Assembly (NCBI RefSeq): GCF_014962245.1
Contig: NZ_CP063144.1
Location: 982,582 to 1,046,581 of the forward strand
Source: Thermosphaera aggregans
Lineage (GTDB): Archaea; Thermoproteota; Thermoprotei_A; Sulfolobales; Desulfurococcaceae
DNA length: 64,000 nucleotides
Reading direction: 5' to 3'
This document shows positions 39,916 through 45,624 of the stretch, one piece after another. The notes under the pieces are model-generated. The model was not told where the DNA came from and ran no database searches. It saw only the letters and a list, made by a program, of their open reading frames with translations. The translations under genes and the position numbers were made by a program. How positions within the stretch are numbered: position 1 is the first letter of the stretch; each line of letters begins with the position of its first letter.

Positions 39916-41316
39916 CTAACCACCTAGCACGAAACCTCTAACCCTCACATGAGGACCCCCGTCCCCGACTCTAACCATTTGACCACTCTTACCGCACCCG
40001 CCGAAAACGCTTGTTTTCACGACAAGGTCTTTTCCAACCGCGTCAACTCTCTTCAAAGTATCTAAGATGATGCCTGAAAGCATCACCCCTTTCACCAGCT
40101 TAACAGGCTCGCCGTTTTCTACGAGATAGCTTGGACCGCTTGTGAATGTGAAGGAGCCTGTTAAAGGATTGACCTCGCCTCCGAGAGCTCCTTTTCCTTT
40201 CACGTACAAACCCTTCCTCATATCCTTGATCATTTCTTCAACGCTCCAATCCCGTGGCAACATGTAAGTGTTCGTCTGCCTTACAAGAATCGAGTGATTG
40301 TAGGACATGACCCTAGCATTGCCTGTGAGAAGGCCTCTTAACGATTTCGCTGTTGAGCGGCTGTGTAAAAACGATTTTAAAACCCCGTTTTCAACCGTGA
40401 AAACCTTGGTTTTCGGAGTGCCTTCATCATCGTAGGGTACGTAAACACCTCCTTGAACCCGCCCGTCATCAACTATAGTTACCAGTTCACTTGCTACTTG
40501 CTCACCAATCCTCCCCGCTAAGACGCTTCCCCCTGCCTCCACAATGTCGCCTTCAGTAGCATGACCGAAGGCTTCGTGAAGCATTAAGCCAACCATCTCG
40601 TTGTCGAGAATAATATCGTATCTTCCAGGGGTGACTCGCGGAGCGGTTAGCGATTCTATCAAGAGCTTCGCGTTTGCTGAAGCATATTCCTCTAAATCAA
40701 TAGTCTTGAAGAACTCCCAACCCCCCACAGTGGACTCGGATACTGAAAGGGATTCGTAATTATTGTTTGAATGCGCAACCAACCTGCATCCAACACCAAT
40801 CATTCTTCGCGTAGAATCGATGAAGTCTCCGTTGCTTGAAACATAGACTCGCCTATCCTTTTCAAAAGCGTATGGAATCGTTATACTAGAGAGCTCTTTA
40901 AACTCCTTCAACTTCTTATGCATTGTGTTGAGAATTTCGATTTTCTCAGCATAGTCGATATCAAACGGGTCTATTCCGTAATGACTTATAATTTTGTCTT
41001 TAAACGTGCCTCGAGACTCCATTGAAACAGTGCCACTATAAGGACTACTACTTTTTGCTATCTTCAAGGCTTTCTCTACCGTGAGTTTAAGATTCTCGTT
41101 AGACATGATGTTCGTGAAGGAGTAGCCAACTCTGTCTCCAATTAACACGCGCACACCTATTCCTCGGGAAAAGGATACCCCGGCATCCCTTACAACTCCA
41201 TTATCCAGGACTATGGTTTCATACAAGTGCTCCTGGTATCTTAAGTCAACGAATTCGGCCCCTAGTTTGATTCCATGGGTAATTACGGAGTCAAAATCTA
41301 ATTCCATAGGTCTCAA
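39916..41316 (-). CDS. tldD: TldD family zinc metalloprotease
   Basis: The 466-residue protein has the zinc-binding HExxxH motif in 'LMLHEAFGHATEGDIV' near residue 245 and the later ligand region 'FGGCGKSGQMVRVGDGGPHVRV' close to the C-terminus. With TldE it forms a hollow barrel that degrades unfolded peptides and, in bacteria, matures modified peptides. In a peptide-fermenting archaeon it may finish peptide breakdown. It heads the tldD-tldE operon; a gap of 155 bases to the next minus-strand gene holds a candidate small RNA on the other strand. Confidence 0.95.
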   Translation of the reverse strand: MRPMELDFDSVITHGIKLGAEFVDLRYQEHLYETIVLDNGVVRDAGVSFSRGIGVRVLIGDRVGYSFTNIMSNENLKLTVEKALKIAKSSSPYSGTVSMESRGTFKDKIISHYGIDPFDIDYAEKIEILNTMHKKLKEFKELSSITIPYAFEKDRRVYVSSNGDFIDSTRRMIGVGCRLVAHSNNNYESLSVSESTVGGWEFFKTIDLEEYASANAKLLIESLTAPRVTPGRYDIILDNEMVGLMLHEAFGHATEGDIVEAGGSVLAGRIGEQVASELVTIVDDGRVQGGVYVPYDDEGTPKTKVFTVENGVLKSFLHSRSTAKSLRGLLTGNARVMSYNHSILVRQTNTYMLPRDWSVEEMIKDMRKGLYVKGKGALGGEVNPLTGSFTFTSGPSYLVENGEPVKLVKGVMLSGIILDTLKRVDAVGKDLVVKTSVFGGCGKSGQMVRVGDGGPHVRVRGFVLGG

Positions 41317-41471: not shown

Positions 41472-42173
41472 TTATCTAAGCGGCAATAACATTAGAAAAG
41501 AGAAAAATACGAGAATGATGTCTGGAGTATATTCCTCCTTCACCAAGAGTATGGGAGTCTTCATCTCCGAGCTCAGCCTGTGATACGAATACTCCTCTAA
41601 AAACCTCCCTACCTCAACTAATCCAGCTACTACCACAGGGATTCTAGCCGTCGTTTTCTCGTTTTTCAAAGCACCAATCATTAAAGACTCCACGAACCAT
41701 TTCATGCCGTAGGGGACAAGTCTCCATATGAGAAGAGGGATATGAACCGCTTGTTTCTTAAAACCGATTTTCCTCAGAATATTCGTAAGAGACACAGGGC
41801 TTATAATCACCACTATGAAAATAATAGTAGTTGATAAGGTTATAGTTCGAGCTACTACCAAGAGTATTTCGAGAATGCTTAAGCTACTCCACCCTAAAAA
41901 ATTGCTCAGCAACGTGGAACCACCCATGTAAGCTCCTACAAGACTCGTTAAAACCAGAGTCGACAACGCCCATTCCATCCCGGGATAGTAAAGACCAAGG
42001 AGAAGTGTTAAAACACCCGTAATGATGACTCCATGTGGATGGCGTAGCATCAATGTCAGAACACACAGGATAAAAATTAGTTTCGAGAAAGGTTCAGCGC
42101 GTCTAAAACCCTCCTCGCTATGCAAGAAGAAGACGTTGTAAATTATGGATACGAGCGCGCCAACCACGCTCAC
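41472..42173 (-). CDS. ECF transporter T component-like membrane protein
   Basis: This 233-residue protein has five to six membrane segments and a charged cytoplasmic loop 'ALKNEKTTARIPVVVAGLVEVGRFLEEYSYHRLSSEM', which corresponds to the coupling helices of EcfT. The usual ARG triplets are replaced by TAR and SSE, so it is a divergent member. It follows the fused ATPase with a four-base overlap and would join it to the S component encoded first in the operon. Confidence 0.8.
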   Translation of the reverse strand: MSVVGALVSIIYNVFFLHSEEGFRRAEPFSKLIFILCVLTLMLRHPHGVIITGVLTLLLGLYYPGMEWALSTLVLTSLVGAYMGGSTLLSNFLGWSSLSILEILLVVARTITLSTTIIFIVVIISPVSLTNILRKIGFKKQAVHIPLLIWRLVPYGMKWFVESLMIGALKNEKTTARIPVVVAGLVEVGRFLEEYSYHRLSSEMKTPILLVKEEYTPDIILVFFSFLMLLPLR

Positions 42174-43489
42174 TTCCCGCCCACCTCAACCGTCTCGTCC
42201 AGGATTTTGAAAACCCTCTCATCATGTGTTGAGACGATTATTGTTAAACCAGACTCAGCCAGCTCTATTAGGTGCTCTAAAACCAGGTGAGAACTAACAT
42301 CATCAAGCCCTGCCGTGGGCTCGTCCAACAAGTAGGTTTGATAGTTTGATAAAAACGCTGAAGCCAGCGCTACCCTCCTTCTCTCACCTGAGCTGAGCCT
42401 TGCAAGAGGACGGTGCAATATGTTTTTAAGATTGAAGCGTTCAGCTATATCGAGCAGTTTAGATTCATTGCCCCCGCTTGCATAGAGGAGTTCCTCCCAG
42501 GGCGTTGGCTTGGTGAAGTAGATGAGCGGGTTTTCCGGGATGTATATGCGTTTCCCTTTCCCAACTACCCTGCCCTTACTTGGCTTTAACACCCCGGCCA
42601 TTATCTTGAGCAGTGTTGATTTACCCGACCCGTTGGGTCCTGTAAGCCCTGTTATAATTCTCTCCTTAATGCTTAGCGAGAAATCCTTGAACAAATAGTC
42701 TCCTCCTGGATATTTAAACCATATGTTTTCAAGCCTGATCGCAAACTCATTACTGCTTCTTATACCGCGTTCAGGCAGCGGAGGGTGAGAGAAGAAATCA
42801 TTTCTCCAGTGCCCGGAATATACTGGTTGCCCGTTATGCAGGTAAATGATTTTAGATGCCAGATCCCTCCAGAATAAGGGATTATGGTCAACAACCACCA
42901 CAGTCTTCCCGTCTTTAAGAGCTGTTTCAACAACACTGTGCAACATTTCCCTAGCATACTTATCAATGTAGACAAGTGGCTCATCTAGAATAAACACCGA
43001 GGAACTCCTTGCTAAGGACTCAGCCCATATTAATCTTTGAGTCTCTCCAGCGCTTAACCCGTATGTTGGATTCTTCAGCTTCCTTCCAAGCCCGAGCTTC
43101 ATCAGATCGAAAAACTCACAAGTATATCCTGCTACCGCTAACGAATGGCAGTATTCTGTTTCCACAGAGTAGCCTACTAGAGCAAACCATGGTTCCTGCG
43201 GGATGTATGCTACATCGGAGTAAAATTCATCAGGAGAGATCTCATCGATGGGAGTATTCCTTATCAATACCTTACCCTTGAAATATCCTCCGACCAGCCC
43301 AATAGTACCTGTTAAAACCCTTACGAGCGTGGTTTTCCCACTTCCTGATTCTCCAGCAATCACCAAAAGCTCTCCCGGGTAGAGCTCGAACTCTATGTTT
43401 CTAATAGTGAAGCCTCCGGGATATCCTGCCTCGCTTACTTCAACGTCTATAACCGGTTGCATAGCATGATACCGTTTAACCTTTAGCAA
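42170..43489 (-). CDS. ECF transporter ATPase, two ABC domains in one chain
   Basis: The 439-residue protein contains both EcfA and EcfA' nucleotide-binding domains. Domain 1 has Walker A 'GESGSGKTTLVR' (about 47-58), signature 'LSAGETQRL' and Walker B 'VFILDEPLVYID'. Domain 2 has Walker A 'GPNGSGKSTLLK' (about 282-293), signature 'LSSGERRRVALA' and Walker B 'YLLDEPTAGLDD', with the switch His in 'VVVDHNPL' and 'VSTHDERV'. The TTG start at 43489 or the ATG at 43462 could both be used; the latter has GGTATCAT upstream. It powers import of a vitamin or metal by the S component. The fusion is common in archaea. Confidence 0.93.
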   Translation of the reverse strand: MLKVKRYHAMQPVIDVEVSEAGYPGGFTIRNIEFELYPGELLVIAGESGSGKTTLVRVLTGTIGLVGGYFKGKVLIRNTPIDEISPDEFYSDVAYIPQEPWFALVGYSVETEYCHSLAVAGYTCEFFDLMKLGLGRKLKNPTYGLSAGETQRLIWAESLARSSSVFILDEPLVYIDKYAREMLHSVVETALKDGKTVVVVDHNPLFWRDLASKIIYLHNGQPVYSGHWRNDFFSHPPLPERGIRSSNEFAIRLENIWFKYPGGDYLFKDFSLSIKERIITGLTGPNGSGKSTLLKIMAGVLKPSKGRVVGKGKRIYIPENPLIYFTKPTPWEELLYASGGNESKLLDIAERFNLKNILHRPLARLSSGERRRVALASAFLSNYQTYLLDEPTAGLDDVSSHLVLEHLIELAESGLTIIVSTHDERVFKILDETVEVGGK

Positions 43490-43516: not shown

Positions 43517-44263
43517 TTATTCTTTTTCAAAAAAACCAGCTTTCCTCAGCCAGGAAGCAACCGGTATTGAAACAGCAATCCCCACTAATGCTTGACCAAC
43601 ATTCACAGGGATCTCAAATACAGCGTTCACCGGGGGTCTACCGGTCAACGGGTTTGATACGAAGTACTCGTAAAGGAAGTAGCCTGTAACCATTAACACG
43701 CCTCCTATTAGCAGAGCTATTGTTTCAGAGAAGTTAACAATATTCTTAGATAAGCCGTAAGTGGCGAGCCCGCCGATCACGAATGCTATTAGTATCCACG
43801 CCCACACAGGTATGTTTAAAATAGGTGCTTCAAGAGTGATTCCAGCCCATTCCCCTGGACCCACGTAAACTTCTCCAGAGTAGAAGAATATTCCGAATAG
43901 GAGCAACCCAACTGTTAGAGAACCCCCTGCAAGCATAGAGTAGTAGGCTTTATAGACCTTCCCAAACCGCTTCACAAGATACCCTGCAACATAGCCTTCA
44001 ATGAATTTTATCACTAATGTGCCGGGGGCGAACAATCCATACCCGGTGGAGATGTCTGCTAAGGCCGCGCCGACACCTCCAGCAAATGCGGCAACAATTG
44101 GTTCTGTTAAAAGAGCTGCGAGATATATCATTGATTCTCCAAGGTTGAAATACCCTCCCGTTACCGGTTGATATATTTGAAGCACTACTGTAGCGGAATA
44201 CACTAGAACAGTGAATACAACAATATTGATGATTCTCCTTGTTCCAAGTGCTTTAGCAGACAT
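43517..44263 (-). CDS. ECF transporter S (substrate-binding) component
   Basis: This 248-residue membrane protein has about six helices with the S-component features 'GYFNLGESMIYLAALLTEPIVAAFAGGVGAALADISTGYGLFAPGTLVIKFIEGYVAGYLVKRFG', here written as joined motifs spanning residues about 34-98. The aspartate and glycine-rich stretch forms the substrate pocket in related proteins. It is the first gene of the ecfS-ecfAA-ecfT operon, with GGTGAT before the ATG and an AT-rich element around 44285-44296 as likely promoter. The substrate is unknown; neighbours do not show a vitamin pathway, although a PLP-fold regulator-like gene lies just upstream. Confidence 0.86.
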   Translation of the reverse strand: MSAKALGTRRIINIVVFTVLVYSATVVLQIYQPVTGGYFNLGESMIYLAALLTEPIVAAFAGGVGAALADISTGYGLFAPGTLVIKFIEGYVAGYLVKRFGKVYKAYYSMLAGGSLTVGLLLFGIFFYSGEVYVGPGEWAGITLEAPILNIPVWAWILIAFVIGGLATYGLSKNIVNFSETIALLIGGVLMVTGYFLYEYFVSNPLTGRPPVNAVFEIPVNVGQALVGIAVSIPVASWLRKAGFFEKE

Positions 44264-44313
44264 GCTATCACCATTTAATAGAAAAATAATATTTGAAATA
44301 TTAAGTTTATCCT

Positions 44314-45624
44314 TTAAGTAAAACTTTCAATATGTCTTGCAAAATACTTTTTCACGCCCGCGTCAAGCTTGGCTTCAACATACCCCATTTCCACAAGGTC
44401 TCGGAGATGCTGATAAACCGCTTGGGGCGTCACATCTATTCCAAGATGCTTCCATACCTCATACCCTGTGAGACCTGGCTTGTTAGATATTAGCTCAAGA
44501 ATCATCTTCTTAGTGATGCCTGGGAACGGGGTGGAAAACCTTTTTCGATTAGGCCTTGTGTAAAGAAGTGGTGCTTTCAAGCCGTGGCCCGTTAGCAAAA
44601 TAACGGAGTCCTCAACTTCTCCGTATTTAAAGAATCCTGCCAAGCTTACCGCTGACGAGGGCTCCACGAAAAGCCCTTCCTTTTTAGACAGCAACTTTGC
44701 CGCTTTAACCGCTCCGCTAGAGTCGATAACGACTACATCTCCATAGTCCTCGATAATTTTTAAAACAGCCTCTTTTATGTAAGGCTGACTGTATCCTAGC
44801 CCTGTTAAAACAGGTTCCCTGCATTTCTCAACTCTCTCCTTCAAAACCTGTGAGTACTTTGGGCTTCCACAATGCTCTATTCCGATGAGCCTCGGTATTC
44901 TATCAGCCACGCCTGCGTCAACTAATTCTTTAAAACCCTTGTATAGTGCCAGTAACGTGACCCCGCTACCAAGAGGTAGGAATACTTTCTCAGGAACACG
45001 CTTAAGATCGAGGAATATCTCATAAGCTATTGTTTTCAACCCCTCGATTGAGAGAGGATTGTGCAGCGTTGACGCATTATATGTCTTACCGCTAGCTGTT
45101 TTTCTGGAAACCGTCTCAAGCAAGGACTCAATGGATTGATCGCTGAGAATCAGCTTTGCCCCGTATGCACGTATTAGAAGAGCCTTCGCATCCTCCATTG
45201 ACGAAGGACCATATACTGTTACTTTCAAACCAACCCTTGCAGCGTAGGCGGCAATACTTGCCCCCATGTTTCCATCGCTGGCAAGGATGAGCTTTTTCAC
45301 ACCGGTGTCTAAAGCGTCAGCAATTATTAACGGTGCTACCCTATCCCTGAAGCTCCCAGTGGGATTGCGCCCCTCGTCCTTGAAATAAACGTTCATACCC
45401 TTGAAAAGCCTGCTAGACTCAAGTAAAGGAGTGTTAGCCTCACCCATTGTAATAGTGTTTTCGAAGCGTGGAAGCATATTGGCAAATCTCCATATTCCTT
45501 TCAAGTCCTCCCTGATGGAGAAATGCCACTCGAACACCGAGGTCAGCAAGCTGTTGCAGTATGGACATGTAATTCTTTTAATATCCCAGAAAACTTCTCC
45601 ACAGCTTGAGCACTTAAACTGCAA
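44314..45624 (-). CDS. Threonine synthase-like PLP-fold protein, catalytic Lys replaced by Arg, C-terminal winged helix
   Basis: The 436-residue protein has an N-terminal zinc ribbon (Cys5, Cys8, Cys20, Cys23), a fold-type II PLP domain and a C-terminal winged helix (about 375-425, 'PGLTGYEVWKHLGIDVTPQAVYQHLRDLVEMGYV'). The threonine synthase core is clear: 'GEANTPLLES', the phosphate loop 'ASDGNMGASIAAYAAR', 'PLGSGVTLLALYKGFKEL' and 'VEPSSAVSLAGF'. But the PLP-binding motif, normally NPTGSFKDR, reads NPTGSFRDR: the codon at 45346-45348 is AGG, so residue 93 is Arg where the Schiff-base Lys should be. It starts with TTG after AAAAGGGG. I infer a ligand-sensing regulator derived from an enzyme, possibly controlling the downstream ECF operon, rather than a threonine synthase. 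Confidence 0.85.
   Translation of the reverse strand: MQFKCSSCGEVFWDIKRITCPYCNSLLTSVFEWHFSIREDLKGIWRFANMLPRFENTITMGEANTPLLESSRLFKGMNVYFKDEGRNPTGSFRDRVAPLIIADALDTGVKKLILASDGNMGASIAAYAARVGLKVTVYGPSSMEDAKALLIRAYGAKLILSDQSIESLLETVSRKTASGKTYNASTLHNPLSIEGLKTIAYEIFLDLKRVPEKVFLPLGSGVTLLALYKGFKELVDAGVADRIPRLIGIEHCGSPKYSQVLKERVEKCREPVLTGLGYSQPYIKEAVLKIIEDYGDVVVIDSSGAVKAAKLLSKKEGLFVEPSSAVSLAGFFKYGEVEDSVILLTGHGLKAPLLYTRPNRKRFSTPFPGITKKMILELISNKPGLTGYEVWKHLGIDVTPQAVYQHLRDLVEMGYVEAKLDAGVKKYFARHIESFT

Follow-up and report, generated by a model that had tools for sequence, protein, structure and literature searches.

A candidate archaeal regulator of vitamin B6 supply built on a threonine synthase fold that has lost its catalytic lysine

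What is the role of a protein that has the fold of threonine synthase, carries an arginine in place of the lysine that binds pyridoxal 5'-phosphate (PLP), and is encoded directly upstream of a vitamin-type transporter operon? This question is raised by a gene of Thermosphaera aggregans, located at 44314-45624 on the minus strand of the 64,000-nucleotide stretch that we analysed (contig NZ_CP063144.1, positions 982,582 to 1,046,581; hereafter the window). The next gene, which encodes the substrate-binding (S) component of an energy-coupling factor (ECF) transporter, begins at 44263 on the same strand and is separated from it by 50 bases. The identity of vitamin B6 transporters has been called a largely open question (PMC9997740). 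We consider it quite probable, from sequence comparison, that the gene product is a one-component transcription factor that responds to B6, derives from a threonine synthase that is no longer catalytic, and controls the adjacent ECF operon. Slightly less firmly, we propose that it belongs to a widespread and previously undescribed family of archaeal factors, annotated as threonine synthase, that arose convergently with bacterial PdxR. In this family, a fold-type II enzyme without the lysine would sense PLP (or a PLP-amino-acid adduct) non-covalently and control the import of B6 or, in genomes with pdxST, its synthesis.

The gene has a TTG start and encodes 436 residues. Pfam comparison placed a PALP domain (PF00291, 226.6 bits) at residues 58-346 (44587-45453, minus strand), and the top structural matches of this enzyme-like part were threonine synthases (2c2b, 6nmx, 6cgq and 1v7c). 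Residues 371-429 matched the winged helix-turn-helix families HTH_5 (21.3 bits, just below the cut-off of 22), HTH_24 and TrmB. An AlphaFold2 model, calculated with a 36-sequence alignment as input (mean predicted local distance difference test score 89.8), showed a helix-helix-helix-strand-strand unit at residues 369-429 (44338-44520, minus strand), which contains the conserved motif QAVYQHL and is joined to the enzyme-like domain by a low-confidence linker (residues 357-368). Weak zinc-ribbon matches covered residues 2-25, and the cysteines of this N-terminal ribbon (C5, C8, C20 and C23; residues 2-30, 45535-45621, minus strand) were unchanged across 36 relatives. An earlier note on this DNA had described a fused C-terminal winged helix, an intact zinc ribbon and a 50-base spacing to an ECF operon on the same strand, and all three were borne out. 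Full-length orthologues are 36-70% identical to the window protein, indicating that the whole chain is clearly constrained. The T. aggregans genome (1.305 Mb, one contig) encodes five PALP proteins, one of which is a separate threonine synthase (ThrC) with the normal motif NPTGSFKDR.

We then compared the position of the PLP lysine among relatives. The motif of the window protein reads NPTGSFRDR, and Arg93 is encoded by AGG, the complement of 45346-45348, as had been noted before. A winged-helix-bearing orthologue was found in 28 of 61 relatives' genomes, two fragments counted in. Every same-family orthologue with an intact motif has Arg at this position, so that the close relatives with a winged helix do not keep Lys; three members from another family of the same order have Tyr or Phe. 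In a set of 163 winged-helix-bearing proteins drawn from archaeal genomes, some of them near-identical, the position is non-Lys in 152 (Arg in 105, Leu in 20, Thr in 7, Ile in 6, Met and Val in 4 each, Tyr and Phe in 2 each, Ala and Ser in 1 each) and Lys in 11. The suggestion that Arg and the winged helix always occur together therefore holds nearly, but not strictly: the position holds various residues other than Lys, most often Arg, and the claim that Lys never accompanies the winged helix was abandoned once the 11 Lys-bearing members turned up. These members also lack the ThrC substrate residues. Lys-bearing members with the motif NPTNSFKDR include those of L196, L203, L241, L123 and L249, of which the first three adjoin an S gene. 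In a quick tree, the Bathyarchaeial Lys-bearing members formed one clade of 8 rows (Shimodaira-Hasegawa-like approximate likelihood ratio 100) beside Arg-bearing ones and ThrC formed one clade of 10 rows; the change counts of this tree were left unused because the automatic winged-helix label had misjudged some rows. The Lys-bearing members possibly reflect reversion or retained covalent PLP sensing.

Residues other than the lysine have also changed. In the 152 non-Lys members, the equivalent of Thr88, which we take from the Thermus enzyme to be the catalytic Thr, is mostly Leu (65/152) or Met (64/152), with Thr in 9. The equivalents of Arg160 and Asn188, which we likewise take to contact the substrate phosphate, are Ser, Val, Ala, Phe or Thr in most members and mostly Ser, respectively. 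In the window protein, Met120, Ser192 and Ser220 stand at these three places. The PLP contacts, in contrast, are retained, namely the Asn of the SxGN loop (Asn87 equivalent, 148/152), the glycine loop (Gly187 equivalent, 147/152) and the Thr of TGxGLK (Thr317 equivalent, 147/152). The window protein keeps Asn119 of an SDGN loop, a GSG loop and Thr345, which agrees with the earlier statement that the other pocket motifs are retained. The lysine position thus behaves as a relaxed former catalytic site within a still-constrained cofactor pocket. Because the pocket is kept but the Schiff-base Lys, the catalytic Thr and the substrate-phosphate residues are gone, PLP or a PLP-amino-acid adduct would most likely be bound non-covalently. 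According to their entry titles, structures of Lys-less fold-type II mutants with ligand exist (1d6s, K41A, external aldimine; 2tys, K87T), and therefore loss of the lysine need not abolish binding of a PLP adduct.

Next, the gene neighbourhood of the regulator was examined across archaea in 138 non-identical loci. The same PF07155 S component directly adjoins the regulator in 81 of them, a lower bound since loci at contig ends are counted in, and lies within two genes in 85 (66 tandem, 17 divergent). In four loci, the gene divergent to the regulator is pdxS; L158 and L159 come from the same family, and the other two are L160 and L232 (Candidatus Geothermarchaeum rappei). In L158, L159 and L160, pdxT is the next gene beyond pdxS.

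The S component of the window (43517-44263, minus strand) passes the PF07155 gathering score clearly (85.1 vs 26.7 bits), and its sole solved sequence relative is HmpT (4hzu_S). PdxU and PdxU2/HmpT belong to PF07155 (PMC9997740); HmpT, originally annotated as a transporter of hydroxymethylpyrimidine (HMP), binds pyridoxamine (PMC4860826). The HmpT pocket is formed by Glu41, His84, Gln87, Tyr120, Asn140 and Gln143. Three of these six have probable counterparts in the S component: Glu41 aligns with the conserved Glu43, and Asn140 and Gln143 correspond by motif and spacing to the conserved N221 and Q224. Tyr120 was unplaced, and His84 and Gln87 are invariantly replaced by Lys86 and Glu89, because of which the cargo could be another vitamin. 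We assign vitamin B6 as the predicted cargo of the operon with fair confidence. The rest of the operon, also on the minus strand, consists of a double ATP-binding cassette ATPase with both ATPase domains in one chain (42170-43489; two PF00005 stretches; conserved as cluster 2 downstream of S) and a probable EcfT transmembrane component (41472-42173), which gave no Pfam match and is assigned from its position and conserved linkage. Riboflavin, suggested as cargo by the Pfam name of PF07155, was rejected: PF00885 of the riboflavin pathway shows no association with the regulator among the relatives (19/28 vs 21/33, p 0.79).

If the regulator serves B6 uptake, how is it distributed relative to the PLP synthase subunit PdxS? 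No PdxS was found in the T. aggregans genome. Among the 61 relatives, PdxS occurs in 2/28 regulator-positive and 18/33 other genomes. Across 398 genomes of the phylum, it occurs in 11/99 regulator-positive and 175/299 other genomes (Fisher p 1e-17), whereas ThiC occurs in 33/99 and 147/299, respectively (p 0.007); these counts are phylogenetically non-independent and the p values ignore shared descent, and regulator-positive genomes, which are a lower bound, are those with hand-picked profile matches, among the rows listed, that reach the winged helix. The contrast between regulator and PdxS is far stronger than that between regulator and ThiC. Both regulator states are found inside four families (f1, f16, f21 and f36), with the same opposition to PdxS. 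The sister species G001, from the same genus, has pdxS and a decayed regulator gene (L036:9003-9473), in which residues 1-85 and scraps of the middle remain and the winged helix is missing; the adjoining ECF operon is intact. Two family members, G002 and G023, have an intact regulator together with PdxS, and the exclusion is not strict.

We then searched the regions upstream of the S genes for palindromes. Tandem loci carry the palindrome TTAAAG-N6-CTTTAA in Desulfurococcaceae and GTAWAGTTNNAACTWTAC in Bathyarchaeia. With at least 14 of its 16 positions required to match, the motif KTAWAGTTNNAACTWTAM was present in 21/54 regions upstream of S and in 7/955 control regions; it was defined on the same loci that were scored, and the comparison is a measure of consistency, not an independent test. 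In the window, the predicted operator TTAAAGGATAAACTTAAT (44300-44317, minus strand) lies upstream of the S gene and overlaps the stop codon of the regulator and, as read by eye, a putative transcription factor B recognition element (BRE)/TATA region. This copy is the only match to TWAAAGNNNNAACTTWAW, a pattern picked after the site had been seen, in the 1.3-Mb host genome, and the reversed pattern gave 0 matches. The site is predicted from its position, its relatives and this post hoc uniqueness. No operator upstream of the regulator itself was found in Desulfurococcaceae. The divergent groups lack the tandem-type motif and have another palindrome, CCTATATATAGG, which is common to regulator/S and regulator/pdxST loci and lies just 3' of the TATA-like element of the regulator. 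CCTAN4TAGG occurs upstream of 13/138 regulators vs 6/1176 control genes, including the pdxST loci L158 and L159. Because the palindrome is present in both kinds of locus, the transporter and PLP synthase appear to be tied to one regulator family.

Taken together, the phylum-wide linkage to S, the S-upstream palindrome with a single copy of its window version in the genome, the divergence from pdxS in four loci and the loss of ThrC substrate residues support the idea, advanced in the earlier note, of a sensor in which a PLP fold unable to form the Schiff base is joined to a DNA-binding domain and controls a vitamin ECF operon. In the mechanism that we propose, a PLP-loaded dimer would use its C-terminal winged helices to grip the palindrome at 44300-44317 and would thereby obstruct the promoter from which the following operon (S, fused ATPases and T) is transcribed. 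The operon would import a B6 vitamer, and a drop in PLP would free it. Repression is favoured over activation because the predicted operator overlaps the apparent BRE/TATA region of the S promoter. The simplest account would be feedback, with PLP repressing uptake (or synthesis) and low PLP relieving it; in related archaea, members of the same family divergent to pdxST and sharing a common operator may govern B6 supply by uptake or synthesis.

Several observations weigh against this interpretation. The window operator matches the KTAWAGTTNNAACTWTAM consensus at only 12/16 positions, a score that 132/955 controls also reach, and its uniqueness was judged with the post hoc pattern mentioned above. 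The S component invariably departs from HmpT at two of the six pocket positions, a distant winged-helix subclade bears Lys, and some members, including those of Thermococci metagenome-assembled genomes (MAGs), are not beside an S gene. The PdxS counts come from non-independent genomes, 11 regulator-positive genomes have PdxS too, and many regulator-negative genomes have none.

Other explanations were weighed against the same evidence. The architecture could sense threonine, O-phosphohomoserine or another aspartate-family metabolite and control threonine metabolism, with the ECF transporter importing an amino-acid-related compound. Its ancestry in threonine synthase and the normal ThrC that is divergently adjacent in several Bathyarchaeia would fit. 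We nevertheless find this unlikely: the equivalents of the residues presumed to contact the ThrC substrate phosphate are lost, the ThrC/regulator gaps of L095, L099 and L103 were scored for an operator-like palindrome and have none, yet one is present upstream of S, and the linkage to pdxS and a B6-type S component would be left unexplained. A role of the regulator and the operon in the supply of thiamine or its precursor HMP is about equally doubtful. The first annotation of HmpT as an HMP transporter (PMC4860826) speaks for it, as does the finding that, among relatives of the window genome, ThiC is rare in those with the regulator (1/28, vs 13/33 of the others). Phylum-wide, however, ThiC is present in one third of regulator-positive genomes and PdxS in 11%, the divergent partner in four loci is pdxS, and the sensor fold is a PLP fold. 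Thiamine was accordingly set aside, since ThiC is anticorrelated with the regulator among close relatives and weakly so phylum-wide.

The protein might also still be an enzyme in which Arg acts in an altered reaction and the winged helix is merely autoregulatory. The conserved fold, much of the pocket and the constraint on the whole chain are what an enzyme would show, but a catalytic residue would not vary as the former lysine position does (R, L, T, I, M, V, Y, F, A or S), the catalytic Thr has gone too, and a real ThrC is present in the genome. We regard this as very improbable, and a functional threonine synthase is likewise disfavoured. A single AAG to AGG change would be enough to turn a normal threonine synthase into the window sequence by recent mutation or sequencing error, but Arg is found in all complete same-family orthologues and in most distant ones, which rules this out for practical purposes.

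How does the proposed B6-responsive factor compare with known systems? In bacteria, the MocR regulator PdxR acts on genes for the synthesis, salvage and transport of B6 (pdxST, pdxK and pdxU); Archaea are reported to have no MocR regulators (PMC5320631). PdxR and the archaeal candidate are both one-component proteins with a winged helix and a sensor derived from a PLP enzyme, and the archaeal family is similarly associated with B6 genes, judging from the S gene, pdxS adjacency and conserved palindromes. The MocR sensor, however, is fold-type I and aminotransferase-like and its GntR-type winged helix is N-terminal, whereas the archaeal sensor is a fold-type II PALP domain, its winged helix is C-terminal without a GntR match in Pfam, a zinc ribbon is present, and most members lack the Schiff-base Lys. 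With ThrC, the candidate shares the fold, and NF004170/PRK05638 (NCBIfam, named 'threonine synthase') spans it end to end including the winged helix (415.5 bits, cut-off 421); it differs in having lost the Lys, the catalytic Thr and the substrate-phosphate residues and in having gained the winged helix. The family is thus neither MocR, by structure, nor ThrC, by catalytic residues, but appears to work like PdxR, and its winged-helix-bearing members have very probably been misnamed by NCBI. The S component shares its family with PdxU/PdxU2 (HmpT), and probably three of the six pocket residues of HmpT, but is longer (about 248 residues), archaeal, and has Lys86/Glu89.

The archaeal vitamin regulators RbkR and ThiR join a vitamin-pathway enzyme domain to a DNA-binding domain and sense the product, and the candidate resembles them in this joining of an enzyme-derived domain to a DNA-binding domain. 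They serve other vitamins and have other folds: their sensors are homologues of riboflavin kinase or thiamine phosphate synthase, the pathway's own enzymes, whereas the donor here is a PALP enzyme of threonine synthesis, of which B6 is merely the cofactor. In the open-licence papers searched, we found no description of this regulator family. One locus thus offers a candidate archaeal B6 regulator, a probable operator and a probable transporter. An enzyme fold of an unrelated pathway has apparently been co-opted, via lysine loss, as a sensor of its own cofactor; such a lysine-less fold-type II sensor would be a second case, independent of MocR and its fold-type I domain, of a PLP enzyme turned into a sensor. 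Many archaeal proteins named 'threonine synthase' are thereby flagged as probable regulators.

Some recurrent neighbours were also observed. In Thermococci MAGs (L229, L247, L252, L253 and L254), Arg-bearing relatives lie away from an S gene and are preceded by a conserved gene of 651-655 codons. The Bathyarchaeial loci L072, L080, L197, L199, L216, L217, L222 and L224 have the dead and live paralogues side by side, the gene for a normal ThrC being transcribed away from the regulator; the gaps that were checked showed no site resembling an operator. In this genus, the ECF operon is followed downstream by two genes for related metalloproteases of the TldD/PmbA type (one at 39916-41316 of the window, the other next downstream). 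In Bathyarchaeia-like loci with cluster 14, a protein of the aminoimidazole ribonucleotide synthase/PurM fold recurs after the S gene (L096:5836-6852, L116:5502-6515 and others); its nearest models are HypE, ThiL and SelD, all under the cut-off, and it is a candidate for a missing kinase of B6 vitamers.
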